Assembly: GCF_003574315.2 (NCBI RefSeq)
Contig: NZ_AP025739.1
Location: forward strand, 5,952,001-6,016,000
From: Capsulimonas corticalis
GTDB lineage: Bacteria; Armatimonadota; Armatimonadia; Armatimonadales; Capsulimonadaceae
DNA: 64,000 bases
Reading direction: 5' to 3'
In this document: piece after piece, positions 4,018 to 23,176 of the stretch
Position numbering within the stretch: the stretch's first letter is position 1
How the letters are laid out: each line of letters opens with the position of its first letter
Position numbers and translations under genes: made by a program
Notes under the pieces: model-generated
Told to the model about the DNA's origin: nothing
The model's input: only the letters and a program-made list of their open reading frames with translations
Databases searched by the model: none

Positions 4018-6051
4018 ATGAAACACTTAATCACCAATTTCACTGGAAACCGCGCCTTTGACCGGCGCACGCAAACGATCGTCGCCGTCGCCATGACCGC
4101 AGCGCTGACCACGACGATCGCGAGCCCCGGACATGCGCAGCCCAGGCACAGCCATCGCTCGATTTGGGCCGTCCGCTGGGCGCAGCAGCATCCGGCGCAG
4201 GCCGCCGCCTATCACCGCTCGCAGCGCGCTCGTTACTCCTGGGCGCCGCAGTCGCGTTACGTGGGTTACACGCACAAGTCCTGGAGCCGCCACAGCGCGC
4301 CGAAGGCCCAGCCCAGCATCGCCGCGTTGACGCCGGCGTCCGTGCTTCCGGCGGCCCCGGTCCGTGTCGCCGCGAACTTCCTACCGCAGAGCACGCTGCG
4401 CATCCTTCCGTCGAACGCCGTCGTGAAGGCGGCTCCGGCCGCGCCGGCCGATCTCACGCAGGATGTCACCCTCGACTTTGTCGGGGCGGATATCAACGAC
4501 GTGCTGAAGGCGCTATCGATGCAGACGCACAGTAATATCGTCTCCGGAACCGACGTCAAGGGATCGATCACGGTGTCTTTGACCCATGTGACGCTGGAGG
4601 AGGCGCTGGATCTGATCACCAAGCTCTCCGGCTTCCTTTACGCGAAAGTCGGACGCACCTATGTGGTCGGCTCGCCGGCCTCCATCGCGTCGCTCACGGC
4701 GGGCAGCGCCGCCAATGTTCCGCCGTCCACGGCGGTCGTGTCGTTTAGCTACTCGGATCCGACGATCCTGACCGCGACAATCAAAGACCGCTATCCGAAC
4801 GTCAAAATCTCCGCAGGCCGCGTCAACGGAACTCTTGGCGGCGGCGTGCTGGTGATCACCGGCGCGGAAAGCGACGTCGAGGCGGCGAAGCAATTGGTCG
4901 CCGACGCCGAGGGCGGGCTTTCGCGCAGCGTCGATTCTTCGCGCACCGAACTATACGACATCAAGTACGCCGCCGCCGACGATCTTCTCGCCGTGCTGAA
5001 CCGGCTGATCCCCAGCCTGATCGTCACACCCGGCCCATCGCGCAACTTCACGCTCACGGCGCCCAACACCGCCGACGCGTCGTCCAGCAGCACCTCCACC
5101 AGTGTCGGCGCACCGCCGCCCGCAGCCGGCGGCGCCGGAGGCCCTGCGTCCACGGCCAGCTCGACGGACGGAGCGGGCGGAACGACCACAACGACTAAGT
5201 CGACGGTCAGTGTGAAACCCACAACCCACGCCCTGCTCTTAACGGGTTCGGACAATGACATCGCCCGCGCCAAATCGATCCTGGCCACGGTCGACACCCG
5301 TCCCAAGCAGATCACCTACGAAGCCAAGATCACCGAGGTTAACCTGAGCGGCGTTCAGAATATCGGATTGAACTGGGACTTAAGCGGCGCCACGACCCGA
5401 ATTGGAGAGATGATTGACAACTCCAACGTCAAGGTCGACGCGAACGGACCGACCCTGGGAGACAACGGCTATATCGGCAAAATCGCGAAGTTTGGAGCCA
5501 TTGGCCGCACCGCCATTTCCAGCCTCGCGAACATCACCCTGGACGCCAAGATCAAGAGCGGCGACGTCAAGCTACTCTCCGATCCTAACATCGCCGCGGT
5601 GGACGGCGAACAAGCAGCCGTCTTCATCGGCGACACCGTGCGCTATATCTCGTCGATCACGCAAACCTCGACCGGACAGACCGTCACAACCGACTCCGTC
5701 AACATCGGCATCAAGCTCTATGTGACGGGCAAGGTCAACAATGACGGCTACGTGACGCTGAATATCCATCCCGAGGTCTCCACGATCTCTGGATATCTTT
5801 CCGTCCCCGGCGGCGGCAGCCTTCCGCAGATCTCCAGCCGCGAAGCGACGACGACGATCCGGGTGAAGGACGGCGAAACCATCGCCATCGGCGGATTGAT
5901 CAGCGACACGGACATCAAGAACGTGCAAAAGGTGCCGCTTCTGGGCGATCTGCCGTTCTTCGGCCAGCTCTTCCGGGACAACCAGCACTCGCACACACGA
6001 AACGAGCTGGTGATCTTCGTCAAGGTCGGTGTCCAGAAGGAACCCGTTTAA
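4018..6051 (+). CDS. pilQ: Type IV pilus secretin PilQ
   Basis: 677 residues. A long N-terminal signal sequence (hydrophobic core about residues 20-38, cleavage near GHA) precedes a His/Arg-rich stretch. The N0/STN-like domain follows (VTLDFVGADINDVLKALSMQ). N1-type KH-like domains come next (TELYDIKYAAADDLLAVL), interrupted by a Gly/Ser/Thr-rich insert. The outer-membrane secretin domain contains VKLLSDPNIAAVDGEQAAVF, ATTTIRVKDGETIAIGGLI and VPLLGDLPFFGQLF, all secretin hallmarks. It forms the gated outer-membrane ring through which the pilus passes. The gene ends the pilMNOPQ unit, and a terminator-like hairpin follows. Confidence 0.95.
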   Translation: MKHLITNFTGNRAFDRRTQTIVAVAMTAALTTTIASPGHAQPRHSHRSIWAVRWAQQHPAQAAAYHRSQRARYSWAPQSRYVGYTHKSWSRHSAPKAQPSIAALTPASVLPAAPVRVAANFLPQSTLRILPSNAVVKAAPAAPADLTQDVTLDFVGADINDVLKALSMQTHSNIVSGTDVKGSITVSLTHVTLEEALDLITKLSGFLYAKVGRTYVVGSPASIASLTAGSAANVPPSTAVVSFSYSDPTILTATIKDRYPNVKISAGRVNGTLGGGVLVITGAESDVEAAKQLVADAEGGLSRSVDSSRTELYDIKYAAADDLLAVLNRLIPSLIVTPGPSRNFTLTAPNTADASSSSTSTSVGAPPPAAGGAGGPASTASSTDGAGGTTTTTKSTVSVKPTTHALLLTGSDNDIARAKSILATVDTRPKQITYEAKITEVNLSGVQNIGLNWDLSGATTRIGEMIDNSNVKVDANGPTLGDNGYIGKIAKFGAIGRTAISSLANITLDAKIKSGDVKLLSDPNIAAVDGEQAAVFIGDTVRYISSITQTSTGQTVTTDSVNIGIKLYVTGKVNNDGYVTLNIHPEVSTISGYLSVPGGGSLPQISSREATTTIRVKDGETIAIGGLISDTDIKNVQKVPLLGDLPFFGQLFRDNQHSHTRNELVIFVKVGVQKEPV

Positions 6052-6083
6052 CGGATATCTTTGCCGGGAACCGAAATTCCACG

Positions 6084-6124
6084 CAAACGGGGGCGACGCC
6101 AACTGCCAGCGCCGCCCCGTTTTG
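6084..6124 (+). terminator. Possible Rho-independent terminator after pilQ
   Basis: AAACGGGGGCG pairs with CGCCCCGTTT (one bulged G) around a 20-nt inner loop, and the descending arm runs into TTTTG. It would separate pilMNOPQ from pilBT. The loop is long and the T-run short, so confidence is moderate. Confidence 0.5.
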
Positions 6125-6234
6125 TCTACAGAACCTCCCCTCAAACGCCGATAATCTCTAATAGGCGTTCTCCCCACCGTGAGCGCGCCACAGACCGCGT
6201 CTCCAGGACGTATGGGTCCCAAGAAAGTCACTCC

Positions 6235-7962
6235 ATGCAATCCGCAGCCTATGGCGATATTTTCGTTTCGAGCGGTCTGGTCACTTCGGAACAGATGCAG
6301 CAGGCCCTCGACAAGCAGCGACAGCTGAAGTCGCAGGAACAGATCGGCGACCTGCTCGTATCGATGGGCTTGATCACCGAGCGCGATCGCGTGCGCTGCC
6401 TGGGCGAGCAATGGGGCGTCCCGTACATCGATCTGACCGACCTCAAAATCGAGGACGATGTCATTGCGGCCATCACACAGGAGCTCGCCCGCCGGTTTAA
6501 GGTCATTCCCATTGAGCGCAGCCCCAAGAAGCTGACGCTGGCGATGAAGAACCCGCTCGATATCTTCGCGATCGACGAGATCCGTCTGATCACCGGCAAG
6601 GAAGTCGAGCCGCTGATCGCGACCGAAGAAGATATCATCAATGCGATCACCAACAACTATCGCACCGAGGTAAACGTCAAGGACGCCGTCACGGACGTGA
6701 TGCGCGACCTGGGCGGCAGCGATATCACGCTCACCGACGACCACAAGACGGACGACGGCATCACGATCGAACAGCTCAAGGAGATGTCCGGCGAGGCCCC
6801 CGTCGTGCGGCTCGCGAATATGGTGATCTCGCGCGGCATTCAAGAGAAGGCGTCGGACATCCATATCGAACCCGCCAAAGACTGCCTGCGGATCCGATAT
6901 CGCGTGGACGGCATCCTGCTGGACGGCATGGTCCTGCCGAAAAAAGCGCAGGCGTCCATCACCTCGCGCATCAAGATCATGGCGGACATGGATATCTCCG
7001 AAAAGCGCGCGCCGCAGGACGGGCGTATCTCCGCCACCATCGAAGGCCGCCCCTACGATTTCCGCGTCTCCACCCTTCCCGCCGTCTTCGGCGAGAAGAT
7101 CGTTATGCGCGTTCTGGACAAGTCCAATATCTCGGTCGGCCTCAACAAACTCGGGCTGCTGCCCTACACGTTCGAGATGTTCGAAAGCATGATCTCGCGC
7201 ACCTACGGCATCATACTGGTGACGGGGCCGACGGGATCGGGAAAGTCCACCACCCTGTACTCGGTGCTGTCCAAATTAAATTCCGGCGAGAAGAACATCC
7301 TGACCATCGAAGACCCGGTGGAGTATGAGCTCTCGGGCATCACGCAGAGCATGGTCAACACCCGCGCCGGCATGACGTTCGCGGCCGGCCTGCGCTCCAT
7401 GCTGCGCCAGGACCCGAACATCATCATGGTCGGCGAAATGCGCGACCAGGAAACGGCGATGATCGCCATCGAAGCCGCGCTGACGGGCCACCTGGTCCTC
7501 AGCACCTTGCACACCAACGACGCTCCCGGCGCGGTCGCCCGTCTTCTGGACATGGGCGTGGAAAGCTTTCTGATCGCCTCCTCCGTCGTCGGCGTGCTCG
7601 CCCAGCGCCTGCTGCGCACCGTCTGCCCCAAATGCAAGGAGCAGTATGCGCCGCCCAAGGACGCCATCAAGCGCCTGGGCATGAACCTGGATCTGCTGGA
7701 CAAAGGGGAAGTCACGTTCTTCCGAGGCCGAGGATGCGACAACTGCAAGGGCAGCGGATACAAAGGCCGTATCGGCGTCTACGAACTGATGCCGATCAAC
7801 GACAAAGTGCGCGAGCTGATCCTGGCCCGCGCGTCCTCCTACGCCATCCGCGAGGCGGCGATTGAAGCCGGCATGCGGACCCTGAAAGACGACGCCATGG
7901 AAAAGATCCTGCTTGGCATGACCACCCTGGAAGAATCGCTGCGCGTCATCTACGCGGGATAG
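6235..7962 (+). CDS. pilB: Type IV pilus extension ATPase PilB (GspE family)
   Basis: 575 residues from the ATG at 6235; the upstream in-frame extension to 6061 is intergenic-looking and contains the terminator hairpin. An N-terminal GspEII/MshEN domain (YGDIFVSSGLVTSEQ, DLLVSMGLIT) is followed by the secretion ATPase core. Walker A is GPTGSGKST at about 331-338. The Asp box is ILTIEDPVEYEL. Walker B is NIIMVGEMRDQET, and the His box is LSTLHTNDAP. A tetracysteine zinc motif (CPKCK and CDNCKG) lies near the C terminus, as in PilB/GspE. MshEN domains often bind c-di-GMP, which is relevant given the GGDEF-bearing sigma factor downstream of pilC. The enzyme powers pilus assembly at the inner membrane. 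pilT follows after 27 nt. Confidence 0.95.
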   Translation: MQSAAYGDIFVSSGLVTSEQMQQALDKQRQLKSQEQIGDLLVSMGLITERDRVRCLGEQWGVPYIDLTDLKIEDDVIAAITQELARRFKVIPIERSPKKLTLAMKNPLDIFAIDEIRLITGKEVEPLIATEEDIINAITNNYRTEVNVKDAVTDVMRDLGGSDITLTDDHKTDDGITIEQLKEMSGEAPVVRLANMVISRGIQEKASDIHIEPAKDCLRIRYRVDGILLDGMVLPKKAQASITSRIKIMADMDISEKRAPQDGRISATIEGRPYDFRVSTLPAVFGEKIVMRVLDKSNISVGLNKLGLLPYTFEMFESMISRTYGIILVTGPTGSGKSTTLYSVLSKLNSGEKNILTIEDPVEYELSGITQSMVNTRAGMTFAAGLRSMLRQDPNIIMVGEMRDQETAMIAIEAALTGHLVLSTLHTNDAPGAVARLLDMGVESFLIASSVVGVLAQRLLRTVCPKCKEQYAPPKDAIKRLGMNLDLLDKGEVTFFRGRGCDNCKGSGYKGRIGVYELMPINDKVRELILARASSYAIREAAIEAGMRTLKDDAMEKILLGMTTLEESLRVIYAG

Positions 7963-7989: not shown

Positions 7990-9612
7990 ATGATTGTCAA
8001 CAACGGAGATCTGCTGCCTCTCAGCCCCATGGAGACGCCCGCCAAGAACGCGGCGCCCCCAGCCGCGACACCGCCGCCAACGCCGCCGCCGGCGCAGGAC
8101 TTTGATTTCCTGGCGCAGATGCAGGATTCCAGCAGCAGCATCGATTCACTGCTGGCGGCCCGCGCCGAAGCCGAAGAAGCGGAAAAGCGCGCGAAGGCGG
8201 CCGGCGAAACGCCTCTCCCTTACCTGAAGGACGACAAGAAAGCAAAAGCGGCCTCACCCGCGCCTGCGCCAAAATCGATGGGCTTCACGATCGGCGGGTC
8301 CGCGGACGACGCGGATTCGCCCGCCGGAATGAGCTTTATCGGCAACGACTTGCGTCGTCTCTCCGACGCAACCGGCATGCAGTCCAACTCCTTCGAGGAG
8401 TACGCTCCGAAGGCCCAGGCCGCGCCGCCCCCATCCCAGAACCGAAGCGGCGAGCTGGACGATCTGCTGCCGCCGACCGCTCGCCCCGCCGCGCAGTCGA
8501 TCGGCGCCGATGAGGATCGCAAGGCTTACATCGAGCCGCCGCGCAGCCTGGTTGAAACGCATATCAATGAGCTGCTCCAGCGGACGGTGGAGTTCGGCGC
8601 ATCGGACCTGCATCTGACGACCGGCCTGCCGCCGATGGTCCGCAAGGACGGCCGCGTCACGCCGCTTCCCTACGACGCCGCCACGCCCCGCGAGGCGCAG
8701 CGCATGGTCTACGAAATCTTGACCACGGACCAGATCACCACGTACGAGCGCACCCACGAGCTGGACTTCTCCTATGGAGTCTCCGGTGTCGGCCGCTTCC
8801 GCTTCAACGTTTACCGCCAGCGCAGCTCGCTCGCCTGCGCCATGCGGGTCATTCCGAATAAGATTCCCAGCCTGGATCAGCTCAAGCTGCCGCCGGTCAT
8901 TCGCGAACTGACGCGCAAGCATTCCGGACTGGTCCTGGTGACCGGCCCGACCGGATCGGGAAAATCAACCACTATCGCCAGCATCATTGATGTGATCAAT
9001 GCGGAGCGCGAATCGCATATCCTGACGATTGAAGACCCCATTGAGTACCTGCATGGCCACAAAAAGAGCATGGTGAACCAGCGCGAACTCGGCGGCGACA
9101 CTCATTCCTTCAACAACGCCCTGCGCGCCGCCCTGCGTGAAGACCCGGACGTCATCCTCGTCGGCGAAATGCGCGACCTGGAAACGATCGCCGCCGCCAT
9201 CACGCTCGCCGAAACCGGCCACCTCGTGTTCGCCACCCTGCACACCCGCTCGGCCCCGGCAACCATCGACCGCATCGTGGACGTCTTCCCTGCCCACCAG
9301 CAGGAACAGATCCGCATCCAGCTCTCCACGAGCATCGAAGCCGTCATCGCCCAGCAGCTCATGCCCAAAATCGGCGGCGGCCGCGTCGCCGCCATCGAAA
9401 TCATGATCGCCACCAGCGCCCTGCGCAACTTGATCCGCGAAGGCAAAACCTATCAGATCAACTCCGTCATCGAAACCGGCCAGCAATACGGCATGCAGTC
9501 CATGGACCGCATGCTCGCCGAACTCCACCGAGGCGGAACCGTGACGTACGAAGAGGCGGCCACCCGCGCGATCGACCGCGAGAATTTCCAGAGGCTCGTG
9601 AAGGGGTATTGA
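7990..9612 (+). CDS. pilT: Type IV pilus retraction ATPase PilT with a long N-terminal extension
   Basis: 540 residues; typical PilT is about 340-380. Residues from about 187 onward are canonical: a PAS-like N domain (LLQRTVEFGASDLHLTTGLP), Walker A GPTGSGKST at about 319-327, Asp box ILTIEDPIEYLH, Walker B DVILVGEMRDLET, His box FATLHTRSAP and the AIRAG-like C-terminal helix region. The first ~186 residues are Pro/Ala/Ser-rich and charged, with a helical AARAEAEEAEKRAKAAG stretch, and look disordered. The start at 7990 has an AAGAGAAG site and no better downstream start before the core. PilT depolymerises the pilus by ATP hydrolysis. It is last in the pilBT pair; no terminator was seen before the next gene. 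Confidence 0.93.
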   Translation: MIVNNGDLLPLSPMETPAKNAAPPAATPPPTPPPAQDFDFLAQMQDSSSSIDSLLAARAEAEEAEKRAKAAGETPLPYLKDDKKAKAASPAPAPKSMGFTIGGSADDADSPAGMSFIGNDLRRLSDATGMQSNSFEEYAPKAQAAPPPSQNRSGELDDLLPPTARPAAQSIGADEDRKAYIEPPRSLVETHINELLQRTVEFGASDLHLTTGLPPMVRKDGRVTPLPYDAATPREAQRMVYEILTTDQITTYERTHELDFSYGVSGVGRFRFNVYRQRSSLACAMRVIPNKIPSLDQLKLPPVIRELTRKHSGLVLVTGPTGSGKSTTIASIIDVINAERESHILTIEDPIEYLHGHKKSMVNQRELGGDTHSFNNALRAALREDPDVILVGEMRDLETIAAAITLAETGHLVFATLHTRSAPATIDRIVDVFPAHQQEQIRIQLSTSIEAVIAQQLMPKIGGGRVAAIEIMIATSALRNLIREGKTYQINSVIETGQQYGMQSMDRMLAELHRGGTVTYEEAATRAIDRENFQRLVKGY

Positions 9613-9644
9613 TAAGACCGTGTCTTCTTCAACAGCTTCCGTGA

Positions 9645-9650: not shown

Positions 9651-9655
9651 AGGAT

Positions 9656-11199: not shown

Positions 11200-11220
11200 G
11201 CATTGTCAGCGGGCCGTTTC
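11185..11220. terminator. Perfect 15-bp hairpin terminator between convergent genes
   Basis: GAAACGGCCCGCTGA (11185-11199) pairs perfectly with TCAGCGGGCCGTTTC (11206-11220) around a 6-nt loop. The ascending arm includes the stop codon of the second ATPase gene. T/A tracts flank both sides, so it probably serves both strands. Confidence 0.85.
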
Positions 11221-11242
11221 ATGAACGTGATCGAACGTCGGA

Positions 11243-11515
11243 CTATTTCTTTTTGAGCATGTGGTGCGCGGCCACGCCGGCGACGACGCCGGTCGCGATG
11301 GGATGACGAGCCGCGAGGCTATGGCCGCCCTTGGCGGCGGACTTCTTCGCCATGTGATGCGCGACAAGGCCCGCGCCGACGCCGGCGGCGGTCGGATGCT
11401 TGTGAAGAACGCCGGCCTGGGCGGGAGTCGCCACAAAGGCGGGAACGGCGAGCGCGATCGATGCGGACAGAATCGCGGCGGCGCGAAGCCGGCGCGTGAT
11501 GGTTGTATTTCTCAT
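11243..11515 (-). CDS. Small secreted His-rich protein with an internal duplication
   Basis: 90 residues. A Sec signal peptide (basic MRNTTITRRLRAAA, hydrophobic core to about residue 34, cleavage after PAQA) is followed by a mature part of about 56 residues. The mature part contains two copies of HP(T/I)A(A/T)GV-x-AG-xx-AHHM-x-KK separated by a Ser/Ala/Gly/His linker. No family is recognised. The glycine-spaced repeats could form a short membrane-associated helical pair, and the paired histidines could bind metal; both are guesses. The ATG at 11515 is the only start that gives a full signal peptide. It is convergent with the ATPase pair. Confidence 0.7.
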   Translation of the reverse strand: MRNTTITRRLRAAAILSASIALAVPAFVATPAQAGVLHKHPTAAGVGAGLVAHHMAKKSAAKGGHSLAARHPIATGVVAGVAAHHMLKKK

Positions 11516-11655
11516 AGATTGGATAGCGCGCGCCGAGGCCGAATCGTTCCCTATTCGGAATGAAGGGTCCGCATGGAGGCAGGAGATCGAGACGGCGCCG
11601 GCGAACAGGCAGGCATGGCCGGGACCTCTTTTCAGTCGCCTTTGGAGGTATTTTG

Positions 11656-12615
11656 ATGCCCACCCTCAAGTTGATTGCGCCGAGCGCACTGCTGTTCGCG
11701 GCGATTGTCTCGCCTCAATTCGCTGGGCCGGCGCGCGCCGGAATTCCCTCTCCTCCCAATCCCAAATACCAGCGGGTATTCGCTCAGGACTTTTCAAAGA
11801 TAAAGTCGCTGGCCGTGGCGCCGCATCTGATCGAAGACGGGGTCTGGATCGCGCATACGCCGTCCTACTCGGACTGGTTTACCTTCGCGGACCCCGGACC
11901 GGACGGGCACCCGTTCAGCCTCGGACATGGATATCTGACCATTCGGGTCCAGAAGGATGGGCACGACCCCAATAACTGGTTCAGCGGTTATAGCGGCGGA
12001 CTGCTGTCGTCCATGGACGAGCACGGCAAGGGCTTCGCCCAGCAGTACGGCTACTTCGAGGCATCCATGCAGGTCCCGGGAACTCCGAATACATGGCCCG
12101 GGTTCTGGCTGCTCGACGCGCCCACGCTCACGGATAAGACCCTCCCGAACGGCTGCGAGATCGACATCACCGAATCGTATGGAAACTATGGAACCGGGCC
12201 GGGGCAAATGCCGCCCGGTCAGCCGAACAAAGACGGACTCGCATGGCATGATTGGGGACACAACGGGACCGCCACCAAAAGCAATGGGATCTTTGTGGAC
12301 GGAGTGGGACTGAACACCGGCTTCCACACCTATGGAGTGGATATCGAGCCCGATACGATCACCTGGTACCTCGACCGCAAATCCGTCTGGACTGTGCCGA
12401 CGTTCGAGTCCGCACGTCGGCCAATGTTCGTACTGGTCAACCTCGCGCTCGGCGGCGGCACGCACAACAGCGCCGACGGCGGCAGCTATGATTGGTCACT
12501 CACGCCGATCCCATCGGATTTGAAGGTGAAGTATATCGCGGTCTGGGCCAGCCCTAACAGCCCCAATTACAAAGGCAAACCAGGGACGGCGCCCAACAAG
12601 AAAGAAAGCAAATAG
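11656..12615 (+). CDS. Secreted glycoside hydrolase family 16 (beta-glucanase-like)
   Basis: 319 residues from the ATG at 11656, which has a perfect GGAGGT site 6 nt upstream. A signal peptide (MPTLKLIAPSALLFAAIVSP, cleavage near ARA) precedes a single beta-jelly-roll domain. The GH16 catalytic signature ExDxxE is present as EIDITES inside NGCEIDITES; the two Glu are nucleophile and acid/base. FGYFEASMQVP-like sequence (here QQYGYFEASMQVP) and WPGFWLLDA are further GH16 landmarks. The C terminus has the expected VLVNLALGGG strand. Substrates of the family include laminarin, lichenan, agar and carrageenan; which one applies here is not readable. No carbohydrate-binding module is present. The protein is exported to periplasm or medium. 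Confidence 0.9.
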   Translation: MPTLKLIAPSALLFAAIVSPQFAGPARAGIPSPPNPKYQRVFAQDFSKIKSLAVAPHLIEDGVWIAHTPSYSDWFTFADPGPDGHPFSLGHGYLTIRVQKDGHDPNNWFSGYSGGLLSSMDEHGKGFAQQYGYFEASMQVPGTPNTWPGFWLLDAPTLTDKTLPNGCEIDITESYGNYGTGPGQMPPGQPNKDGLAWHDWGHNGTATKSNGIFVDGVGLNTGFHTYGVDIEPDTITWYLDRKSVWTVPTFESARRPMFVLVNLALGGGTHNSADGGSYDWSLTPIPSDLKVKYIAVWASPNSPNYKGKPGTAPNKKESK

Positions 12616-12625
12616 ACGCCAAAAG

Positions 12626-12658
12626 GCCGCTTCGCGCATCGCGCGAAGCGGCTTTTTT
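12626..12658. terminator. Bidirectional Rho-independent terminator
   Basis: GCCGCTTCGCGC (12626-12637) pairs perfectly with GCGCGAAGCGGC (12641-12652) over a 3-nt loop, followed by six T. An A-tract on the left side gives T's on the minus strand. It lies between the convergent GH16 gene and the large secreted protein. Confidence 0.9.
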
Positions 12659-12673
12659 GATATGAGGCGCGGA

Positions 12674-14890: not shown

Positions 14891-15200
14891 AAATCCTCCA
14901 ATGGATTGTGATTATTGCGAATACAAAATCAATTTTTATCGACGTTGACGCGGGAGTTTTCGCGCGGCGACATCGCCTGACTTCGCGCAATGCAGTGGAT
15001 AAACGCATAATCCATGCCAAGTGCCTGGTAAAAATACGAGCTTACGCCCAAACATCAGCAATCGTCATTTTCCAGAAGCATACAGCCATAAAAACGAGTT
15101 TGCGCTCGCGCATAAGCGGGTAAATGATCGTGGACATCCTCCCGACCGTCACGAACCGAAGCGAACTACCTATGGCGGCGAGGGGAGAAGGAGAACAATC
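14891..15200. other. 310-nt intergenic region between divergent genes
   Basis: Locally AT-rich. It holds the leader of the minus-strand secreted protein (GGAGG just above its ATG) and, on the plus strand, a SigB-like promoter candidate at 15098-15123. No ORF with coding character and no hairpin terminator is seen. Confidence 0.6.
15098..15123 (+). promoter_or_regulatory. Candidate SigB/SigF-type promoter for the general-stress gene
   Basis: GTTTGC, 14 nt, then GGGTAA matches the Bacillus sigma-B consensus (GTTTAA, 12-15 nt, GGGTAT) in its core bases. It lies 77 nt upstream of a YflT-like gene. No good sigma70 promoter is visible in the same interval. That the sigma factor at 18881 uses it is inference. 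Confidence 0.45.
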
Positions 15201-15728
15201 ATGGCGGATCTGATTACCGGACTGTTCCGTGACCGCGCTTCCGCAGAGCGCGCGGTCGCTGACTTAGAAGCATTGGGATATCGTCAAAGCGATATCAGCG
15301 TGATTATTCGCGATGAAACGGCGCGCCGTGAGTTCACGGAAGCGACCGGAACGAAAGCCACCGAAGGCGCCGGCGTTGGCGCCGCGATTGGCGGCACTCT
15401 GGGCGCGATCGTCGCGGCCCTCACGGCGACAGGCAGCGTCGCGGCGATCGCCGCGACCGGCGGCGCGGCGATCCCGCTCGTGGCCGGTCCTCTGGCGGCG
15501 GCTCTGGCCGGCGCGGGCGCGGGCGGCCTGGGCGGCGGCATTATCGGCGCCCTGGTCGGCGCGGGTATCCCCGAGGAAACCGCGCGGACCTATGAGACTG
15601 GCCTCGCGAGCGGCGGCATTCTGGTCGGAGTCCACGCGGACGCCGCCAATGCGGCGCGTGTCCGGCAGGCGCTCATCTCCGAAGGCGCCGTGGACGTGCA
15701 AGGCCAACTGGCCGGCGCGACGCTGTAA
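15201..15728 (+). CDS. General stress protein 17M/YflT-like protein
   Basis: 175 residues. The N terminus (LITGLFRDRASAERAVADLE, then GYRQSDISVIIRD) is the ferredoxin-like YflT/GSP17M domain. A Gly/Ala-rich central region of about 80 residues (TGAGVGAAIGGTLGAIVAAL-type, several glycine-zipper repeats) is likely membrane-inserting. A second small alpha/beta half follows (GGILVGVHADAANAARVRQA). Proteins with this arrangement are common in stress regulons controlled by SigB-like factors; the biochemical role is unknown. The ATG at 15201 follows a GAGAAGGAG site. A candidate SigB-type promoter is upstream and a hairpin terminator is downstream, so it is monocistronic. Confidence 0.8.
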   Translation: MADLITGLFRDRASAERAVADLEALGYRQSDISVIIRDETARREFTEATGTKATEGAGVGAAIGGTLGAIVAALTATGSVAAIAATGGAAIPLVAGPLAAALAGAGAGGLGGGIIGALVGAGIPEETARTYETGLASGGILVGVHADAANAARVRQALISEGAVDVQGQLAGATL

Positions 15729-15763
15729 CCGTTGCAAAACTTGTAACGCTCGCGTACTGACAG

Positions 15764-15800
15764 ATCGGCCGGCGGTGAATTCCGCCGGCCGATTTCTTTT
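15764..15800 (+). terminator. Rho-independent terminator after the stress gene
   Basis: ATCGGCCGGCGG (15764-15775) pairs perfectly with CCGCCGGCCGAT (15782-15793) over a 6-nt loop and is followed by TTCTTTT. Confidence 0.9.
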
Positions 15801-15819
15801 GCTTGCTCCCGACCTCTGG

Positions 15820-15825
15820 TACAAT
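15820..15825 (+). promoter_or_regulatory. -10 element of a leaderless promoter
   Basis: TGG TACAAT (extended -10) ends 6 nt before the ATG at 15832, so the predicted +1 is the A of the start codon. There is no Shine-Dalgarno site in between. Confidence 0.55.
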
Positions 15826-15831
15826 CCTCCC

Positions 15832-17382
15832 ATGCCCTCCCCCACATATGACGTGATCGTCGTCGGCGCCGGACACAACGGCCTGGTCTGCGCTTGTTAT
15901 TTGCAACGCTTTGGATATCGCGTGCTCGTCGTCGAACGCCGTCCCATTGTCGGCGGCGCCGTCTGCACCGAGGAGATCTGGCCGGGTTACAAGATCGATA
16001 TCGGGTCGTCGGTCCATATCATGATCCATCAGACGCCGATTGTGAAGGACCTGGAGCTGGCGCGCTACGGACTTTCCTATATCGAGATGGATCCCTGGGC
16101 GGCGTTTCCAATGCGCGACGGACGCGCCATCTGTTTCCACCGGGATGTCGATCGAACGTGTGCGAGCATCGCGCAGGTGTCGCGCCGGGACGCCGCCGCG
16201 TACAAAGATTTCATCACGCGCTGGGCTCCGGTCGCGCGCGGCGTCTTTCGGGCGTTTCAGGAGCCGCCGACGATGGCGAACTTCGGCCGTCATGTCATCA
16301 TGGCGAAGTCGCCCGGACGGAACACCAGCGACACCCTGCGTATGATCTTGTCGGGATACGGCCGCCTGCTGCATGAAACCTTCGAAAGCACGGAGATGCG
16401 CGCGGCGCTGGGCTGGCTGGCGGCGCAGTCCGGCCCGCCGCCCACGGAGATCGGCTCCGGCCCCTTCGCCGGCTGGCACGCCGCCCTGCACGAAACGGGA
16501 GCCTGGCGCGCGCGCGGCGGCTCGGGCGCGCTCACAGCCGCAATGCGGCGCGCGTTCGAGGCGCAGGCGGGCGAAGTGCTCACCGACGCTCCCGTCGAAC
16601 AGATTCTCGTCGAGAACGGCCGCGCCGTCGGCGTGGAGGCCGGCGGGCAAACGTATCGCGCGAAGGCCGTCGTCTCCGCCTGCCATCTGATGACGACGAT
16701 GCGGACGCTGCTGGCGCCGGAGCACATCCCCGAAGATCTGAAACGCCGACTGGACGCGCTGAACGTGGGCAACGGTTTTGGCATGACGGTGCGCTGCGCC
16801 GCCTCCGAGCTTCCCGACTACGGCGCCGGACAGCCTCACGACGTCCACCAGGGCATGCAGCTCCTCTGCCCCACCCCTGAATACCTGATGGACGCCTACG
16901 CCGACTACGTTGGCGGCCGCCCCTCCAAGAAACCGCCCGTCCTCGCCATGACCTTCAGCGCGCTGGATCCCACGCTCGCCCCCGCCGGCAAGCACATCGT
17001 CCAGCTCTGGTCGCAGTACTTCCCTTACGACCGCCGCGACGGCCGCTCCTGGGATGATGCGCGCGAGGAAGTCGCGGACAGTATCTGCGAAACCCTCTAC
17101 GACCACGCCCCCAACATGCGCGGCGCCATCGAGAAACGCTTCATCCAAACCCCGCTCGATCTCGAACGCACCCTTGGCCTCCTGCGCGGCAACGTCATGC
17201 ACCTCGAAATGTCCCTGGACCAAATGTTCGCCTTCCGCCCCCTCCCCGAGCTTTCCGAATACCAATCCCACATTCCCGGCCTCTTTCTCACCGGCGCCAG
17301 CACCCACCCTGGCGGCGGCGTCTTCGGCGCCTCCGGCGCCAGCGCCGCGCGCGTAGTGCGAAAGGCGCTCGGGCGGCGATAA
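15832..17382 (+). CDS. Phytoene desaturase-like FAD-dependent oxidoreductase
   Basis: 516 residues. The N-terminal Rossmann motif is DVIVVGAGHNGLVCACYLQR (GxGxxG with the Gly-His-Asn-Gly variant typical of the COG1233 branch). VLVVERRPIVGGAV follows. The C-terminal FAD motif is FLTGASTHPGGGVFGASG. This is the phytoene dehydrogenase/carotenoid isomerase superfamily. The GHNGL variant is common in uncharacterised COG1233 members and in pyridine nucleotide-disulphide oxidoreductase-domain protein 2 homologues, not in true CrtI, and no carotenoid gene is nearby. The substrate is therefore not assigned. The gene is apparently leaderless and followed by a GC-rich palindromic repeat. Very long antisense frames across it are codon-bias shadows. 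Confidence 0.85.
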   Translation: MPSPTYDVIVVGAGHNGLVCACYLQRFGYRVLVVERRPIVGGAVCTEEIWPGYKIDIGSSVHIMIHQTPIVKDLELARYGLSYIEMDPWAAFPMRDGRAICFHRDVDRTCASIAQVSRRDAAAYKDFITRWAPVARGVFRAFQEPPTMANFGRHVIMAKSPGRNTSDTLRMILSGYGRLLHETFESTEMRAALGWLAAQSGPPPTEIGSGPFAGWHAALHETGAWRARGGSGALTAAMRRAFEAQAGEVLTDAPVEQILVENGRAVGVEAGGQTYRAKAVVSACHLMTTMRTLLAPEHIPEDLKRRLDALNVGNGFGMTVRCAASELPDYGAGQPHDVHQGMQLLCPTPEYLMDAYADYVGGRPSKKPPVLAMTFSALDPTLAPAGKHIVQLWSQYFPYDRRDGRSWDDAREEVADSICETLYDHAPNMRGAIEKRFIQTPLDLERTLGLLRGNVMHLEMSLDQMFAFRPLPELSEYQSHIPGLFLTGASTHPGGGVFGASGASAARVVRKALGRR

Positions 17383-17433
17383 GATGCCCCCGGCCCTCAC
17401 GGGAGGCCAACCATATTCTCGGAGACGTGACAG

Positions 17434-17498
17434 GCCCTCACCCGGCCCTTCGGGCCACCCTTTCCCAATTCTGGGAGAGGGGGCCGGGGGGTGAGGGC
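17434..17498. repeat. REP-like GC-rich palindromic repeat
   Basis: A 65-nt imperfect palindrome. The outer arms GCCCTCACCCGGCC and GGCCGGGGGGTGAGGGC pair, and two small inner hairpins (GGCCCTTCGGGCC, and TCCCAATTCTGGGA) sit between them. Similar GCCCTCACCC...GGGTGAGGGC palindromes are scattered in many bacterial genomes as extragenic repeats. It may also stop transcription from the desaturase gene. I did not notice a second full copy in the window. Confidence 0.7.
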
Positions 17499-17604
17499 TC
17501 ACCCTCCAGCCCATCCACGAATTCACCGATAATGAAGACGGCGGCGTCTCGCGGCGCAGCGCCTGCGGCAATGGCCCCTGCCGCCGCTCTTCAGGAGGTA
17601 TTGC

Positions 17605-18813
17605 GTGGCAACGTTTCAATATGACGCCGTGGATCCGTCGGGTCGCACGGTCAAAGGCAAAATCGAGGCGGATAACGAACAGATGGTGCTCGCCCGCCTG
17701 CACGAGCAGCATTTCCATATCCTGTCGGTGACCGAAGCGAAGGCGAGCATGAAGCTTCAGTTCGCTTCGAAAACGCAAAAGGTCAAGCTCCCCGCGCTGG
17801 TCGTCTTCTCCCGCCAGTTCGCCACCATGATCGACGCCGGTATTCCGATCATCAAATGCCTCGACATTCTGGAGAGCCAGGTCAAGGAAGAAGGCCTCAA
17901 AGGCGTCATCAACGCCACCAAGCGCGATGTCAAGGGAGGACTGTCTCTGACCGACGCGCTCGCCAAGCATCCGCATGTTTTTTCCAAACTTTATGTCAAC
18001 ATGATCCGCGCCGCGGAAATTGGCGGTATTTTGGACACGATTTTGGATAGGCTTGCAGGATTTTTGGAAACGGAAATGGAAATAAAGGGCAAAGTGAAGT
18101 CCGCGATGATGTATCCCATCATTGTCCTGTGCTTCGCCGGCCTGATGGTCGTCGCCCTGTTCCTATTTGTCCTGCCGCGCTTTAAAGAGATTTTCACCTC
18201 CATGAACGTGGAGATGCCGCCGACCACGCAGTTTTTGTTCGACGCCAGCGACTGGCTGCAAAAGTTTTGGTGGCTCGTGGCGATGATCATTACGGGATCG
18301 ATAGTCGCGCTGAAAAAGTACGACAAGACCGTCAAAGGACACTTCGTTCTGGACGGCCTCAAGCTCAAGCTGCCGATCTTTGGCGACCTTGTGCTGAAGA
18401 TGAGCATTTCGCGCTTTGCCCGAACCTTTGGAACGCTGATCGCTTCGGGTGTCCCGATGATGCGGTCTCTGGAGATCATCGGCGAGACATCCGGCAACGC
18501 GGTGCTGGCGCAGGCGATCAACAACGCGCGCGTTTCCATTCGGGAAGGCGCCAAGATCAGTCATCCGCTGGCGGCCTCCGGGCTGTTTCCGTCGATGGTC
18601 ACGCATATGATCGATGTCGGTGAAGAAACCGGACGCCTCGCGGAGATGCTGACAAAAGTCGCCGACTTTTATGACAACGAAGTGGACGCGATGGTCAAGG
18701 GATTGACATCCATGATCGAACCGCTGCTGATCGTCTTCATGGGCGTCGTTGTCGGATTCATCGCCATCTCCGTAATGGCTCCGATCTTCAAGTTGGTGAC
18801 GTCCATACATTAA
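17605..18813 (+). CDS. pilC: Type IV pilus inner-membrane platform protein PilC (GspF family)
   Basis: 402 residues with a GTG start after a perfect AGGAGGT site. The N terminus (FQYDAVDPSGRTVKGKIEAD) and two GspF repeats (FSRQFATMIDAGIPI at ~70 and FARTFGTLIASGVPM at ~270) define the family. Three membrane segments are visible (about 170-190, 220-235 and 370-395). PilC is the rotor-like platform between PilB/PilT and the pilin pool. Unusually it is about 8 kb from pilT, separated by unrelated genes. The next gene is a sigma factor fused to a GGDEF domain, 67 nt downstream. Confidence 0.95.
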   Translation: MATFQYDAVDPSGRTVKGKIEADNEQMVLARLHEQHFHILSVTEAKASMKLQFASKTQKVKLPALVVFSRQFATMIDAGIPIIKCLDILESQVKEEGLKGVINATKRDVKGGLSLTDALAKHPHVFSKLYVNMIRAAEIGGILDTILDRLAGFLETEMEIKGKVKSAMMYPIIVLCFAGLMVVALFLFVLPRFKEIFTSMNVEMPPTTQFLFDASDWLQKFWWLVAMIITGSIVALKKYDKTVKGHFVLDGLKLKLPIFGDLVLKMSISRFARTFGTLIASGVPMMRSLEIIGETSGNAVLAQAINNARVSIREGAKISHPLAASGLFPSMVTHMIDVGEETGRLAEMLTKVADFYDNEVDAMVKGLTSMIEPLLIVFMGVVVGFIAISVMAPIFKLVTSIH

Positions 18814-18880: not shown

Positions 18881-20200
18881 ATGGGAGCAGACACAGCAGC
18901 GAGTCCTTCGAAATGGGACGGGCAGGAACGCCGCAGCCCGAGCCGCTTGGATGACGAGTCGCGAGCGCGCCGACTTTTGATCAAGTATAAAGCCGGCGGT
19001 CCCGATGCGGCGGCCGCGCGCGAAGCGCTCGTGCTCCAATTCCGGCCTCTGGTTCAAAAGCAGGCGCGTCAGTTCATGAGCGCCGCCGTGCCGCTGGAGG
19101 ATCTCATTCAGGAAGGCTTTCTCGGCCTGATGCATGGGATCGACCAGTACGATCAAACGCGTGGCGTCAAGCTGATTACCTACGCCACGCACCATATCGA
19201 TGGGCACCTGCGTCACTTCCTTCGCGACCGCGTCCAGATCATCAAGGAGCCGGCGTGGCTTCAGGAGCTGGCGCAAAAGGTCCGCCGCGAAATTGAAACC
19301 CTCACCCAATCTCTTGGCCGAGAGCCAACCGACCAGGAAACGGCGCAGTCGCTGGGGCTGGCCGAGTCGGAAATCGTTCGAATCAAGTCCACGCGATCCA
19401 TCTTCGCCGTGACGTCGCTGGACGAGGCGCAGGAGACCGGCGGCCCCGCCGCCCATGTCGCCGAAAACAACCTTCGCGCCACCACCGCCGAGCTCCCCAT
19501 CGAAGACCGCGTTGTTCTGGAGAATGCGCTCGTCCGTCTCAAGGAGATCGAACAAAAGGTCCTTTACAGCTTCTACTACGAAGACCGCAGCCAGACGGAT
19601 ATCGCGCGCGCTCTCGGCGTCTCGAACAACTATATCTCGCACATTCTGAAAAATTCGGCGCGCAAACTACAGCAGATGTTCCGCAGCGACGCTGTCCGCG
19701 AAGCCGCGCTGCAGCATGAAGGGCGACGCCGACGGATCGCCAGCCTTGGCCCCATGGCGGCGGCCGACTACGAGGAAGCGCCCGCGACCGTTGTCGACGC
19801 CGTCACCGGACTGTATACGCAGAGCTATTTTGACGCGCGTTTGGAAGAGGAAGTATCTCGCGCCAAGCGGCACGATCTGGAGCTGTCGGTGGTAAGGGTC
19901 CTGGTGGGGAACGATCTGCCGGAGGCGACCTACTTCGCGCAGGTCGCGCAGACCGTGAACGAGTGCATGCGCCGCTCGGACTTGGTGGCGCGGATCGGGG
20001 ATCATGAAATCGGCGCGATGCTGCCGCACACCGGCGCCACGCGTGAGATCGTTCTGCGGCGTTTGATCACGCAGCTTACGGCGCTGCGCGACGCGCTGCC
20101 GCACGAGTTTACCATCACGCTGGGCGCGGCTTCATTTCCAGAGTATGCGCACAAAAGCGATCTGATGGAGGCGGCGGCTCCGGTGCATGGGCTGGGATAG
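18881..20200 (+). CDS. SigB/SigF-like sigma factor fused to a degenerate GGDEF domain with intact RxxD I-site
   Basis: 439 residues from the ATG at 18881 (GGAGGA upstream; an in-frame GTG at 18860 would add 7). Region 2 spans about 39-114 (LEDLIQEGFLGLMHGIDQYD, then TYATHHIDGHLRHFLRD). Region 3 follows with LGREPTDQETAQSLGL. Region 4 spans about 208-265 with helix-turn-helix SQTDIARALGVSNNYISHIL. After a ~35-residue basic linker, DAVTGLYTQSYFDARLEEEV begins a GGDEF domain (about 303-433). The Mg-binding DxD-FK-ND segment is missing or shortened and the GGDEF signature is GDHEI, so cyclase activity is unlikely. RRSD at about 364-367, five residues before that signature, matches the RxxD c-di-GMP I-site. 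I infer a sigma factor that senses c-di-GMP directly. It follows pilC by 67 nt and ends convergent with a small gene. Confidence 0.85.
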   Translation: MGADTAASPSKWDGQERRSPSRLDDESRARRLLIKYKAGGPDAAAAREALVLQFRPLVQKQARQFMSAAVPLEDLIQEGFLGLMHGIDQYDQTRGVKLITYATHHIDGHLRHFLRDRVQIIKEPAWLQELAQKVRREIETLTQSLGREPTDQETAQSLGLAESEIVRIKSTRSIFAVTSLDEAQETGGPAAHVAENNLRATTAELPIEDRVVLENALVRLKEIEQKVLYSFYYEDRSQTDIARALGVSNNYISHILKNSARKLQQMFRSDAVREAALQHEGRRRRIASLGPMAAADYEEAPATVVDAVTGLYTQSYFDARLEEEVSRAKRHDLELSVVRVLVGNDLPEATYFAQVAQTVNECMRRSDLVARIGDHEIGAMLPHTGATREIVLRRLITQLTALRDALPHEFTITLGAASFPEYAHKSDLMEAAAPVHGLG

Positions 20201-20235: not shown

Positions 20236-20487
20236 TTAGTCGCCGATGCCCATCAATCGCCGGAGGGCCGCCAGATCGTACGGGTCGCCGTCGGCGATGG
20301 CGCTCTGTATGTTCTGCTCTTCAGCCTCGACGATTCCACGAGCGAGATTTTGCTTGAGGAGAAACGCGATGGTCTCCACCAGCCTCGCGTTGGCCTGCGA
20401 TAAGCTCTGGATGGACCGCATCAGGTCCTCCCATTGCGCGCGGGTCAGCATCACGGTCTCGTCTGTCAGTTCCTCGTCGTCTTCCAT
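20236..20487 (-). CDS. Small acidic hypothetical protein, probably leaderless
   Basis: 83 residues from the ATG at 20487 (an in-frame ATG at 20514 would add nine). The protein is acidic at the N terminus (MEDDEELTDETVML), then amphipathic helical (RAQWEDLMRSIQSLSQANAR, then LVETIAFLLKQNLARGIVE). The C terminus contains a short DPYDLAALRRLMGIG helix. No family is recognised. The heptad-like hydrophobic spacing suggests a coiled coil or a small helical hairpin. The start choice rests on TATAAT at 20499-20494, six nt upstream, which would put +1 at this ATG and exclude the longer form. It is convergent with the sigma-GGDEF gene; whether it acts with it (for example as an anti-sigma partner) is untested. 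Confidence 0.6.
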   Translation of the reverse strand: MEDDEELTDETVMLTRAQWEDLMRSIQSLSQANARLVETIAFLLKQNLARGIVEAEEQNIQSAIADGDPYDLAALRRLMGIGD

Positions 20488-20493
20488 GTCCGG

Positions 20494-20499
20494 ATTATA
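20494..20499 (-). promoter_or_regulatory. -10 element of a leaderless promoter
   Basis: TATAAT on the minus strand, six nt above the ATG at 20487. It lies inside the longer in-frame ORF, so it argues for the shorter start. Confidence 0.5.
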
Positions 20500-20558
20500 C
20501 CCAGATATATTCATGATAATACTCGCAGTTCTACCAGAAACTGGCTAGGTCATGGTCA

Positions 20559-21275
20559 TTACAAATTTACGCCGTTGACATTGAGGTGGAATTTGCATCC
20601 CAAAAAGTCCGCGGCGCGATGGCATAATACCATACGGAGCACGAAAATCTCAAAGTACTCGGTCACCGAAGCGTGCTGCGTATCGATCGTCAGCTCCAAA
20701 ATGATGGCTTTCGCGGCGGCGTCCACGCGCAGATACGATTTCTGAACCGCATAGTTCACCCGGTCATGGATGTCGAACTTGATCGGATCGCTCACCTGGA
20801 CGCGGGAAAAGTGGACGTCGGACTTGTCGGCAATGATGACCGCCGCCGAGACCGCCGAAATCGGGACGCCGTTGGGCTCCTCATGATTGCCGATCGCGCC
20901 GATCACCGTCGCGATCTCCCCCGCCGACATCCCCATTTGCGTCAGGATCGTATAGGCGATCAGCGCGCCGGCTTCCACATGCCCAATACGATTGACGACG
21001 CAGCCCATATCGTGCAGATATCCCGCGATGGCCGCGAGCTCGGCGTCGCGCTCGTCCCGCTGCAAGTTCGTCAGGATGCTGCGCGCGATGGTGGAGACGA
21101 TGCCGGCGTGCCGGTGCCCGTGCTCTGTGTAGCCGATCGCCTGCATCTGTTCGTTGGCGCGCGTGATGTAAGTTCGTACGCGGCTGTCGTGGCGCACATC
21201 CTTGAGCGTAATCAAGTCGGTCTTTTCCACCTTCTCGATCTTCTCCACTTTTTCGATCTTCTCTTCGGATTCCAT
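20559..21275 (-). CDS. HD-domain phosphohydrolase-like protein
   Basis: 238 residues. The N terminus is a charged KIEKVE repeat (EEKIEKVEKIEKVEKTD). An HD domain follows with HGHRHAGIVS (first His), AAIAGYLHDMG (HD pair), RIGHVEAGALIAY and IGNHEEPNG. This matches HD/HDIG metal-dependent phosphohydrolases. A phosphodiesterase or nucleotidase role is likely, but the GYP residues of HD-GYP c-di-GMP phosphodiesterases are not seen. The C-terminal ~80 residues (DKSDVHFSRVQ, ILELTIDTQ) form a separate beta-rich part found in uncharacterised HD proteins. The start overlaps the stop of the upstream phosphodiester glycosidase gene (TAATG), so the two are translationally coupled. Confidence 0.8.
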   Translation of the reverse strand: MESEEKIEKVEKIEKVEKTDLITLKDVRHDSRVRTYITRANEQMQAIGYTEHGHRHAGIVSTIARSILTNLQRDERDAELAAIAGYLHDMGCVVNRIGHVEAGALIAYTILTQMGMSAGEIATVIGAIGNHEEPNGVPISAVSAAVIIADKSDVHFSRVQVSDPIKFDIHDRVNYAVQKSYLRVDAAAKAIILELTIDTQHASVTEYFEIFVLRMVLCHRAADFLGCKFHLNVNGVNL

Positions 21276-23176
21276 TACTTTGGCCGTCCTATCGTTACTG
21301 ACGCAAGCGTTCCGGACGTCACCGTCACCAGCCCGCCGGCTGCATTGTCCCAAGTGATACGGAACGTCACGCCGCCGTCGGCGTCCGTCACCCCATCGAT
21401 GTGATCGGCCTTCCCGCCGGTCACGCTCACATGGACCGGCATTCCCTGCCCCGGCTTCAGCGCCGCATTCGCGATCTGCACCGAAAGTACGCTCTGCTGG
21501 GCTCCGGCCACCGGAGCACGCGCGATCTTTGTCCGAAGGGCGAAGAGATCCGCCGCGCTGACCAGCGGCGCGGCGGGCGCGCTCACCGTGATCGTCGTCG
21601 TGACAAGCTGCCCTTTGTAAAGCGCCGTGATCTTTGTGTCTCCCGGAGCGAGGGCAAGGAAGGAGCCGCTCTGGTTCACGAAACCGCAGCCGCCGGAACT
21701 CGGCCCCTGCCATACGACATCGCCGGAATCCCCTCGGATCGTCCTGGCGCCGTCGACGAGCGTGAGCGTGGTGGCGGCGCCGACGGTCAGCGTGTCGGAA
21801 GCGGCGACGATCTGCGGTCCGCGCACGAAGGCCGCGGGCGGCATTCCCACCACGTTTGCGGGATCCACTTGCATGACGGGAAGAACCGAATCTTCCGGCG
21901 CTGTTTCCACGTAAGGGGCGTCGCTGTCGATCAGAAGCATATCGGCGACGGGGCGCTCGTACCCCGTTCCGCCGGGACTGCTGATAGTTATACCCCCAAC
22001 CGCCATCGTCGTCGACCCGCCGCCGTCCAGATTGATCGCTTCGGAGGCGCCGTACCGCTTCAAAATGCCGGCGAGAGCGACGAGCGACACGCCTTTGGAG
22101 ATCGTCTGCCGCCCGTCCACCGTCACGATATACAGGCGGCTGCCGTCGCTACTGGTCCCGACAGCCGTCCTCGGGTGCGGCCCGTCTGTCAATGTGGCGT
22201 CGAACCCTTCGGCGACGCCGTCAACGCTCACCTGGCCATTGACGAGCAGGCGCGGCCCGCCGCCGATCGCATGCGACATCCGGCTCCAAAGAAACGCCTT
22301 GCGGTCGATCCCAACGCCGGCGCGCGAAGGCAGATCCCCCACGCGCGGGAGGTTCGCCACCTGGACGGAGCTCGCCACATTACTCGGATCCCCTACCCCT
22401 AGCACGAAACCAACATTGTCGCCGGCGTGAATATGCTGAGCGAGGAAATCCGCGCCGACGCCCGGACCGCCGGCAATCACCAGACCATCCGGCGGGATCG
22501 GCGTGATCCCATCGCTGAGCGCTTTGACGACCGTGACCTTGCCCTGGATCATCTTGTTGGCCCGCAAGGGCAGGTTGACGCCCGTCAGCACGAGGTCCGT
22601 ACCGCCCGGCTTGTTGGCCGTCGCATCGCCATATGTACTGCTGTAGACAACGACTTCGCTCTTCCCCGCCAGCCGGTTGATCCCGCGAACCGCGATGCGC
22701 TGCCCATCAGCCGCCTGAAGATCGCCCAAAAAGCCAAGGATATCGAACAGCGCCCGCTTGCCGTCGTCGGTGAACCCCAGCACCGCGCGCGGCCCGCCCT
22801 TCCCATAGCCGGTCCAGGGTTCGGACAGCAGCTCGCCGTTGCGAATGCCCAGTCCGAGCGGATCGCCCGTATAGTCGAAATAATCGCCGTTCACCGCCAC
22901 CAGCGCTTTGTGCCGCCGGGCGAGGCGCGCCACATCTTCCCGTCCCTTCGTCGCATCCGAGCCGAAGATCTTATCCTGGCCGATCGCGACCTCGGGATGC
23001 ACGCCCGCCGTCTTCAGATCGACGGTCACAACGTTGATAATCAATGGCGTCGTCGTGTCGATCTCTTGTGTCAGCGTCACTCCGGGCGCAAGGCGCTTCG
23101 TCACAGTGCTCGCCTGGCAGAGAGACGAGGCGAACGAAAGCAATATTACGAAGCTAAGGGGGGAAGTTCTGTTCAT
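21275..23176 (-). CDS. Secreted phosphodiester glycosidase family protein (NAGPA domain)
   Basis: 633 residues from the ATG at 23176; the longer frame to 23314 runs through the promoter. A signal peptide (MNRTSPLSFVILLSFASS, cleavage near QAS) is followed by an N-terminal domain. The NAGPA/phosphodiester glycosidase domain comes next, with VAVNGDYFDYTGDPLGL, GGGPRLLVNGQ, RTAVGTSSDGSRLYIVTVDG and the hallmark EAINLDGGGSTTMAVGG. The C terminus has Ig/invasin-like beta domains (IVAASDTLTVGAATTLTL, then VHVSVTGGKADHI). NAGPA proteins cleave GlcNAc-1-phosphodiesters; bacterial forms act on cell-surface polymers. It is co-transcribed with the HD gene. The promoter is at 23211-23216. Confidence 0.85.
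   Translation of the reverse strand: MNRTSPLSFVILLSFASSLCQASTVTKRLAPGVTLTQEIDTTTPLIINVVTVDLKTAGVHPEVAIGQDKIFGSDATKGREDVARLARRHKALVAVNGDYFDYTGDPLGLGIRNGELLSEPWTGYGKGGPRAVLGFTDDGKRALFDILGFLGDLQAADGQRIAVRGINRLAGKSEVVVYSSTYGDATANKPGGTDLVLTGVNLPLRANKMIQGKVTVVKALSDGITPIPPDGLVIAGGPGVGADFLAQHIHAGDNVGFVLGVGDPSNVASSVQVANLPRVGDLPSRAGVGIDRKAFLWSRMSHAIGGGPRLLVNGQVSVDGVAEGFDATLTDGPHPRTAVGTSSDGSRLYIVTVDGRQTISKGVSLVALAGILKRYGASEAINLDGGGSTTMAVGGITISSPGGTGYERPVADMLLIDSDAPYVETAPEDSVLPVMQVDPANVVGMPPAAFVRGPQIVAASDTLTVGAATTLTLVDGARTIRGDSGDVVWQGPSSGGCGFVNQSGSFLALAPGDTKITALYKGQLVTTTITVSAPAAPLVSAADLFALRTKIARAPVAGAQQSVLSVQIANAALKPGQGMPVHVSVTGGKADHIDGVTDADGGVTFRITWDNAAGGLVTVTSGTLASVTIGRPK

Follow-up and report, generated by a model that had tools for sequence, protein, structure and literature searches.

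Capsulimonas corticalis, a member of the Armatimonadota, encodes a sigma factor that continues in the same polypeptide into a GGDEF-fold domain devoid of catalytic residues, and we consider this fusion likely to be a one-protein c-di-GMP-responsive sigma factor that acts through c-di-GMP-linked dimers and that, in much of the phylum, is also under proteolysis. The gene lies in the stretch of DNA analysed here, a window of 64,000 nucleotides that covers positions 5,952,001–6,016,000 of NZ_AP025739.1, the only contig of the 7.6 Mb genome, and it stands directly downstream of pilC (Table 1). Its architecture is shown by the data below, while its response to c-di-GMP is inferred, in the absence of binding or transcription data.

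The reading frame is open from both a GTG and an ATG codon, of which the ATG is the likelier start, since GGAGG lies about 11 nt upstream of it. Residue numbers of the fusion protein (R334, R371, D374, R401, 256–295 and 306–446) count from the GTG and drop by seven in ATG numbering, which is used for the Pfam residue ranges. All three Pfam sigma-70 regions score above their gathering thresholds, so that the claim of the original prediction that regions 2, 3 and 4 are present held, with the qualification that the region 3 match covers only the first half of the model. The best NCBIfam match of the sigma part, and the nearest named sigma family, is SigB/SigF/SigG (TIGR02980; 158.5 bits, E 2e-46); however, the fusion protein does not reach the cut-off of this subfamily (234.35) and is longer by about 170 residues, which include the GGDEF domain. 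Nor does it reach the FliA/WhiG cut-off (TIGR02479, 189.6), scoring 111.1 bits. Ordinary SigB/SigF/SigG members are ruled by separate anti-sigma kinases. The architecture is that of a SigB/F/G-like (group-3) sigma factor extended at its C terminus by a GGDEF-fold domain that lacks catalytic residues, and we infer, without transcription data, that the N-terminal two thirds could in principle bind core RNA polymerase and read promoters.

Table 1. Coordinates within the window of the fusion gene, its domains and I-site residues, and the neighbouring type IV pilus genes.
Feature	Position	Strand	Evidence and remarks
Secretin (pilQ/gspD type)	4018..6051	+	Secretin 3.2e-44
pilB with MshEN domain, second likely c-di-GMP reader	6061..7962	+	T2SSE 2.8e-136, MshEN 3.9e-21
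pilT-like ATPase	7990..9612	+	T2SSE 2.1e-45
pilC, directly upstream of the fusion gene	17605..18813	+	T2SSF 3.6e-62
Sigma factor-degenerate GGDEF fusion gene	18881..20200	+	ATG start, 439 aa; alternative GTG 18860, 446 aa; orthologues in ~118/201 Armatimonadota genomes
Sigma-70 region 2	19028..19231	+	Pfam PF04542 (Sigma70_r2), E 1.1e-13, residues 50-117
Sigma-70 region 3, first half of model only	19265..19390	+	Pfam PF04539, E 2.5e-7, residues 129-170
Sigma-70 region 4 (-35 reading HTH)	19526..19672	+	Pfam PF04545, E 6.4e-10, residues 216-264
Long helix, residues 256-295, region 4 to GGDEF domain	19625..19744	+	AF2 model; VIA alignment of 254-446 to PleD 256-448
Catalytically dead GGDEF domain, residues 306-446	19775..20197	+	Pfam GGDEF 8.2e-14 (best stretch 352-432); Z ~19 to PleD (2wb4, 2v0n)
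R334 = PleD R313, secondary I-site arginine acting on partner domain	19859..19861	+	122/122 orthologues
RRSD, R371-D374 = PleD R359-D362, primary I-site	19970..19981	+	120/122 and 121/122 orthologues
GDHEI, relic of GGDEF signature	19997..20011	+	Signature lost in 122/122 orthologues
R401 = PleD R390, third I-site residue of same domain	20060..20062	+	116/122 orthologues

The fold of the C-terminal domain was examined in an AlphaFold2 (AF2) model for which the window protein was combined with 18 named relatives. The model has a mean pLDDT of 78, rising to 85–92 across most of the GGDEF domain, and a pTM of only 0.38. A Foldseek search with it placed solved sigma factors at the top of the list, with WspR also present, and residues ~307–446 align to PleD with c-di-GMP at Z ~19 and an rmsd of 2.0–2.1 over 137–140 residues (VIA-align 2). 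An unrelated C-terminal fold, which would have refuted the original prediction, is excluded by this match (Z ~19, rmsd 2.0). The other features predicted for this domain all held: the signature reads GDHEI, the DxDxFKxxND segment is lost, and RRSD stands five residues before the signature. In the same model and alignment, the long helix leading out of region 4 takes the position of the stalk helix of diguanylate cyclases. The low pTM predicts that the two halves of the protein have no fixed relative position; as the AF2 models describe single chains and have low pTM values (0.38 for the window protein, 0.48 for an orthologue discussed below), the domain arrangement remains unresolved.

Homologues of the fusion gene were detected in 139 of 201 Armatimonadota genomes at E <= 1e-60. 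In about 118 of the 201, as counted from the listed places, the match runs into the C-terminal domain, the remaining matches being to the sigma part only. We extracted 124 distinct full-length fusion ORFs, usually one copy per genome; genome G121 has two copies (L248 and L265). Orthologues are mostly only 30–40% identical to the window protein, and its named relatives are nearly all Armatimonadota. Full-length homologues with both halves across the phylum, together with the GGDEF fold, place the architecture far beyond chance. Outside Armatimonadota, the fusion was not found in the sets examined, where the best matches (Bipolaricaulota, Rubrobacteraceae and others) stop after region 4, and the sigma ORFs of loci L081–L140 contained no GGDEF profile match. 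Within these sets, and only within them, the fusion is confined to Armatimonadota.

Genomes with the fusion also carry more GGDEF domains in a 26-genome sample, with 4–51 per genome against 2–5 in those without (Mann-Whitney p 2.5e-4). These higher counts fit a c-di-GMP-responsive reading of the fusion, although shared descent confounds the comparison, as does the counting of the fusion itself. The 7.6 Mb genome of Capsulimonas corticalis has 51 GGDEF matches, that is, 50 besides the fusion, a number far above that of most of the other 25 Armatimonadota sampled.

The main evidence for a c-di-GMP receptor comes from the residues that this dead domain has kept. In PleD, the inhibitory site (I-site) for c-di-GMP is formed by three residues of one domain (R359, D362 and R390) together with R313 contributed by an adjacent GGDEF molecule (PMC7288161), and both DgcR and PleD are cross-linked through the I-site with R313 from the neighbour (PMC8041772). 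We aligned 122 fusion domains (the alignable ones among the 124) with PleD, 29 intact cyclases of Capsulimonas corticalis itself and a set of 39 weaker GGDEF domains drawn from the phylum, the PleD reference sequence having been checked against PDB entries. None of the 122 fusion domains retains the GGDEF signature, and the catalytic and GTP-binding positions (PleD D327, N335, D344 and the GGDEF positions) keep the PleD-type residue in only 4–44% of the fusions, showing from sequence that the domain is not an active diguanylate cyclase. All four I-site residues are nevertheless kept together in 113 of the 122 domains, the window protein included. Among the 139 domain columns, R334 ranks first in conservation (122/122), D374 second (121/122), R371 third (120/122) and R401 sixth (116/122).

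RxxD was considered as receptor evidence in its own right and rejected as weak, as it is present in each of the 29 intact same-genome cyclases; being universal in these active enzymes, its retention must in part be inheritance. The case was consequently moved to the full four-residue site, judged against controls. The complete site is found in 17/29 intact same-genome cyclases, 3/25 weak-scoring intact GGDEF domains and 4/14 other degenerate GGDEF domains, and the position of R313 is invariant in the fusions while being kept in only 59% of the intact cyclases (17/29). The retention counts are not independent, because the fusion proteins share ancestry, a concern mitigated by their mostly 30–40% identity to the window protein. 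We conclude that the full I-site, above all the invariant, trans-acting R334, argues for a selected c-di-GMP receptor that probably works as a dimer; binding and dimerisation are inferred, as there are no binding data. The prediction that RxxD would be conserved in homologues while GGDEF would not has thus held (120/122 for the R359 equivalent, 121/122 for the D362 equivalent, 0/122 for the signature). By naming only RxxD it rested on a weak basis, and the stronger one is the complete site, of which the arginines R334 and R401 had not been noted. The c-di-GMP sensing role proposed there is supported, whereas binding and control of transcription remain inferred. Separately, four degenerate GGDEF proteins of the same phylum other than the fusion (L275, L294, L292 and L297) keep all four I-site residues, and two of these (L275 and L294) have an intact GGDEF domain some 1.5 kb away.

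Three other accounts of the domain were weighed against these data. According to the first, the fusion arose once and its GGDEF part is a relic decaying without function, which would agree with the loss of catalytic residues everywhere. We regard this as very unlikely: decay is incompatible with four I-site residues at 95–100% among proteins about 30–40% identical, and the GGDEF fold is well predicted (AF2). A second account holds that the domain is purely a protein-protein module, such as an anti-sigma carried in the chain or a docking site for a phosphodiesterase or an active cyclase, with the I-site kept for folding or for salt bridges at an interface. Degenerate GGDEF domains do serve as interaction modules; RxxD and the arginine following it (R378, 90%) are conserved in active cyclases too, and the conserved E331, R327 and P389 of the fusion domain are not I-site residues. 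However, the fold does not need the I-site, as the full set is absent in 22/25 weak-scoring intact and 10/14 other degenerate GGDEF domains of the phylum, and the partner-acting R313 position is far more constant in the fusions than in intact cyclases, leaving this account unlikely. The third supposes a different ligand (such as GTP, pppGpp or another cyclic dinucleotide) at the I-site or at the relic active site. Some GGDEF domains have turned into GTP sensors (PMC10333796), and the crystal structures 9g85 and 9g86 show PleD with both c-di-GMP and (p)ppGpp. In the fusions, however, the GTP-binding residues are poorly kept and the conserved set is that of the c-di-GMP I-site, so that another ligand seems very improbable.

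The fusion gene is linked to type IV pilus genes, as had been proposed: its position behind pilC held, as did the presence of a PilB with an MshEN domain in the same locus, though PilB is not adjacent. Across the phylum, at least 27 of the 52 loci whose upstream gene is visible have pilC as the immediate upstream neighbour, in the same orientation and at a median distance of 82 bp; the link was not seen in about half of these 52. A pilT or pilB gene lies no more than three genes away in 18 loci, and the full order pilB(MshEN)-pilT-pilC-sigma is present in several families. In the window, pilB stands about 11 kb upstream of the fusion gene, behind an insertion: the roughly 8 kb between pilT and pilC (9613–17604) hold unrelated genes for two AAA_21 ATPases, a glycoside-hydrolase-like protein, a 738-aa protein on the minus strand and an FAD oxidoreductase, whereas other families keep pilT-pilC-sigma together. 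On the other side, a gene for an HD-domain protein (PF01966, E 1.9e-5; 20559–21713, minus strand) is convergent to the fusion gene, and between the two lies a 92-aa ORF without a Pfam match (20236–20514, minus strand).

Linkage to the operon is shown, whereas the regulon is inferred from the operon alone, since no common promoter motif emerged: upstream of the operons, neither a shared dyad nor a SigB, SigF or FliA consensus was found beyond chance, bar a single FliA-like match. Among the recurring close neighbours that were clustered, no RsiG-type gene (E(X)3S(X)2R(X)3Q(X)3D motifs) was identified, a search restricted to neighbourhoods and not genome-wide.

A further feature, absent from the original prediction, appears at the C terminus of most relatives. 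Of 120 complete fusion orthologues, 77 end in Ala-Ala (KAA, LAA, RAA, QAA and others), compared with only 3 of 378 other proteins from the same loci. The tail in these orthologues is unalignable and 6–37 residues long, the residues ahead of the final two are variable, and in one of them the last residues are predicted to be disordered (AF2 model, pTM 0.48). A nucleotide-level cause, such as a terminator or an overlap, was considered and rejected, as the full range of Ala codons (four) and stop codons (three) is represented at these ends; this variability indicates that selection acts on the terminal amino acids. On a tree of 104 representatives, Ala-Ala is found in 65, with nine changes, and is clustered: it is the predominant ending within one large clade and does not occur in a clade of 26 representatives or in the family of the window protein, which itself ends in HGLG. 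Non-fused sigma-like ORFs end in Ala-Ala in 6 of 61 cases, above background, and it is possible that the tail is not unique to the fusion.

In Caulobacter, CtrA is stabilised once its terminal alanines are changed to aspartates (PMC4433202), and the tmRNA tag of the window genome ends in YALAA. The fusion orthologues resemble CtrA and ssrA degrons in carrying a terminal Ala-Ala after a variable tail; unlike for these, degradation has not been shown, and the window protein lacks the motif. Conservation of the tail in relatives is shown, and in the large Ala-Ala clade it is likely to be a ClpXP-type degron as in CtrA, although proteolysis is inferred without degradation data. Ala-Ala is not part of the mechanism of the window protein, where it is absent; for most relatives in the Ala-Ala clade it is a strong lead.

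These tails suggest a further alternative in which the sigma factor is constitutively active and c-di-GMP merely gates the presentation of Ala-Ala to ClpXP, uniting PopA and CtrA in one chain. In its favour, the motif is selected at the amino-acid level and is frequent in orthologues compared with neighbouring proteins, and PopA, a degenerate GGDEF protein with RxxD, takes part as a dimer with c-di-GMP in the delivery of CtrA to ClpXP (PMC8973945, PMC10333796). Against it, the window's family and a second large clade keep the I-site without Ala-Ala, and there at least the receptor must serve something else. We therefore hold control of lifetime alone to be unlikely, and retain the reading of a c-di-GMP-responsive sigma factor.

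In this preferred reading, a former diguanylate cyclase domain would no longer make c-di-GMP and would sense it through the four residues of its inhibitory site. Bound by R371, D374 and R401 of one molecule, a c-di-GMP dimer would at the same time be clasped by R334 of another, pairing two sigma factors through their C-terminal domains. With the C-terminal domain hanging on the helix that leaves region 4, such pairing would alter the access of regions 2 and 4 to core RNA polymerase. The direction of control is inferred: inhibition at high c-di-GMP is favoured somewhat over activation, by analogy with RsiG-WhiG, and the sequence leaves the matter unsettled. The likely outputs would be the type IV pilus genes sharing the operon, so that c-di-GMP may act twice, on transcription through the sigma fusion and on the pilus motor through the MshEN domain of PilB. 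In the Ala-Ala clade, c-di-GMP may also set the lifetime of the fusion.

The closest functional parallel is RsiG-WhiG, the only known sigma/anti-sigma complex targeted by c-di-GMP according to the authors of PMC8325347; in Rubrobacter, this two-protein switch controls type IV pilus genes (PMC8325347). The fusion would share with it c-di-GMP control of an alternative sigma factor, an inference, as well as the type IV pilus setting. In RsiG-WhiG, however, the anti-sigma is a separate coiled-coil protein and c-di-GMP binds between it and the sigma factor, whereas here the putative receptor, a degenerate GGDEF domain, is part of the sigma polypeptide. This sigma factor is also of the SigB/F/G-like kind and not a WhiG (TIGR02479, 111 bits against a cut-off of 190). 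PopA and PelD are degenerate GGDEF receptors that bind c-di-GMP through RxxD (PMC10333796). The fusion resembles them in its GGDEF fold, dead signature and full I-site, and by inference in c-di-GMP binding; it differs in its output, a sigma factor found only in Armatimonadota in the genomes examined, theirs being a protease adaptor and a polysaccharide exporter. By analogy, the fusion probably works like a cross between RsiG-WhiG and PopA while being a member of neither. ECF41 and ECF42 sigma factors also have a regulatory domain fused behind region 4; these domains are SnoaL-like or TPR, ECF sigma factors lack region 3, and to our knowledge no second-messenger ligand is known for the C-terminal domains of ECF41 or ECF42. 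No published sigma-GGDEF fusion was found in the open-licence literature searched, with subscription papers and preprints outside its scope.

A bolder reading, towards which we lean by a narrow margin, is that this is the first sigma factor to bind a second messenger itself: a phylum-wide, single-chain switch from c-di-GMP to the promoter, derived from a cyclase domain, linked to type IV pili and, in the majority of lineages within a single large clade, also equipped with an Ala-Ala degron. As c-di-GMP is the main signal in the bacterial choice between moving and settling, a receptor built into a sigma factor would, if confirmed, be a new wiring of the second messenger to RNA polymerase, and a ready-made, portable switch from c-di-GMP to transcription. 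It would also, next to Rubrobacter, be a second example of type IV pili, a sigma factor and c-di-GMP coming together, and possibly an example of a c-di-GMP receptor and a proteolysis tag being combined in a single chain, in a protein found in most genomes of the little-studied phylum Armatimonadota.
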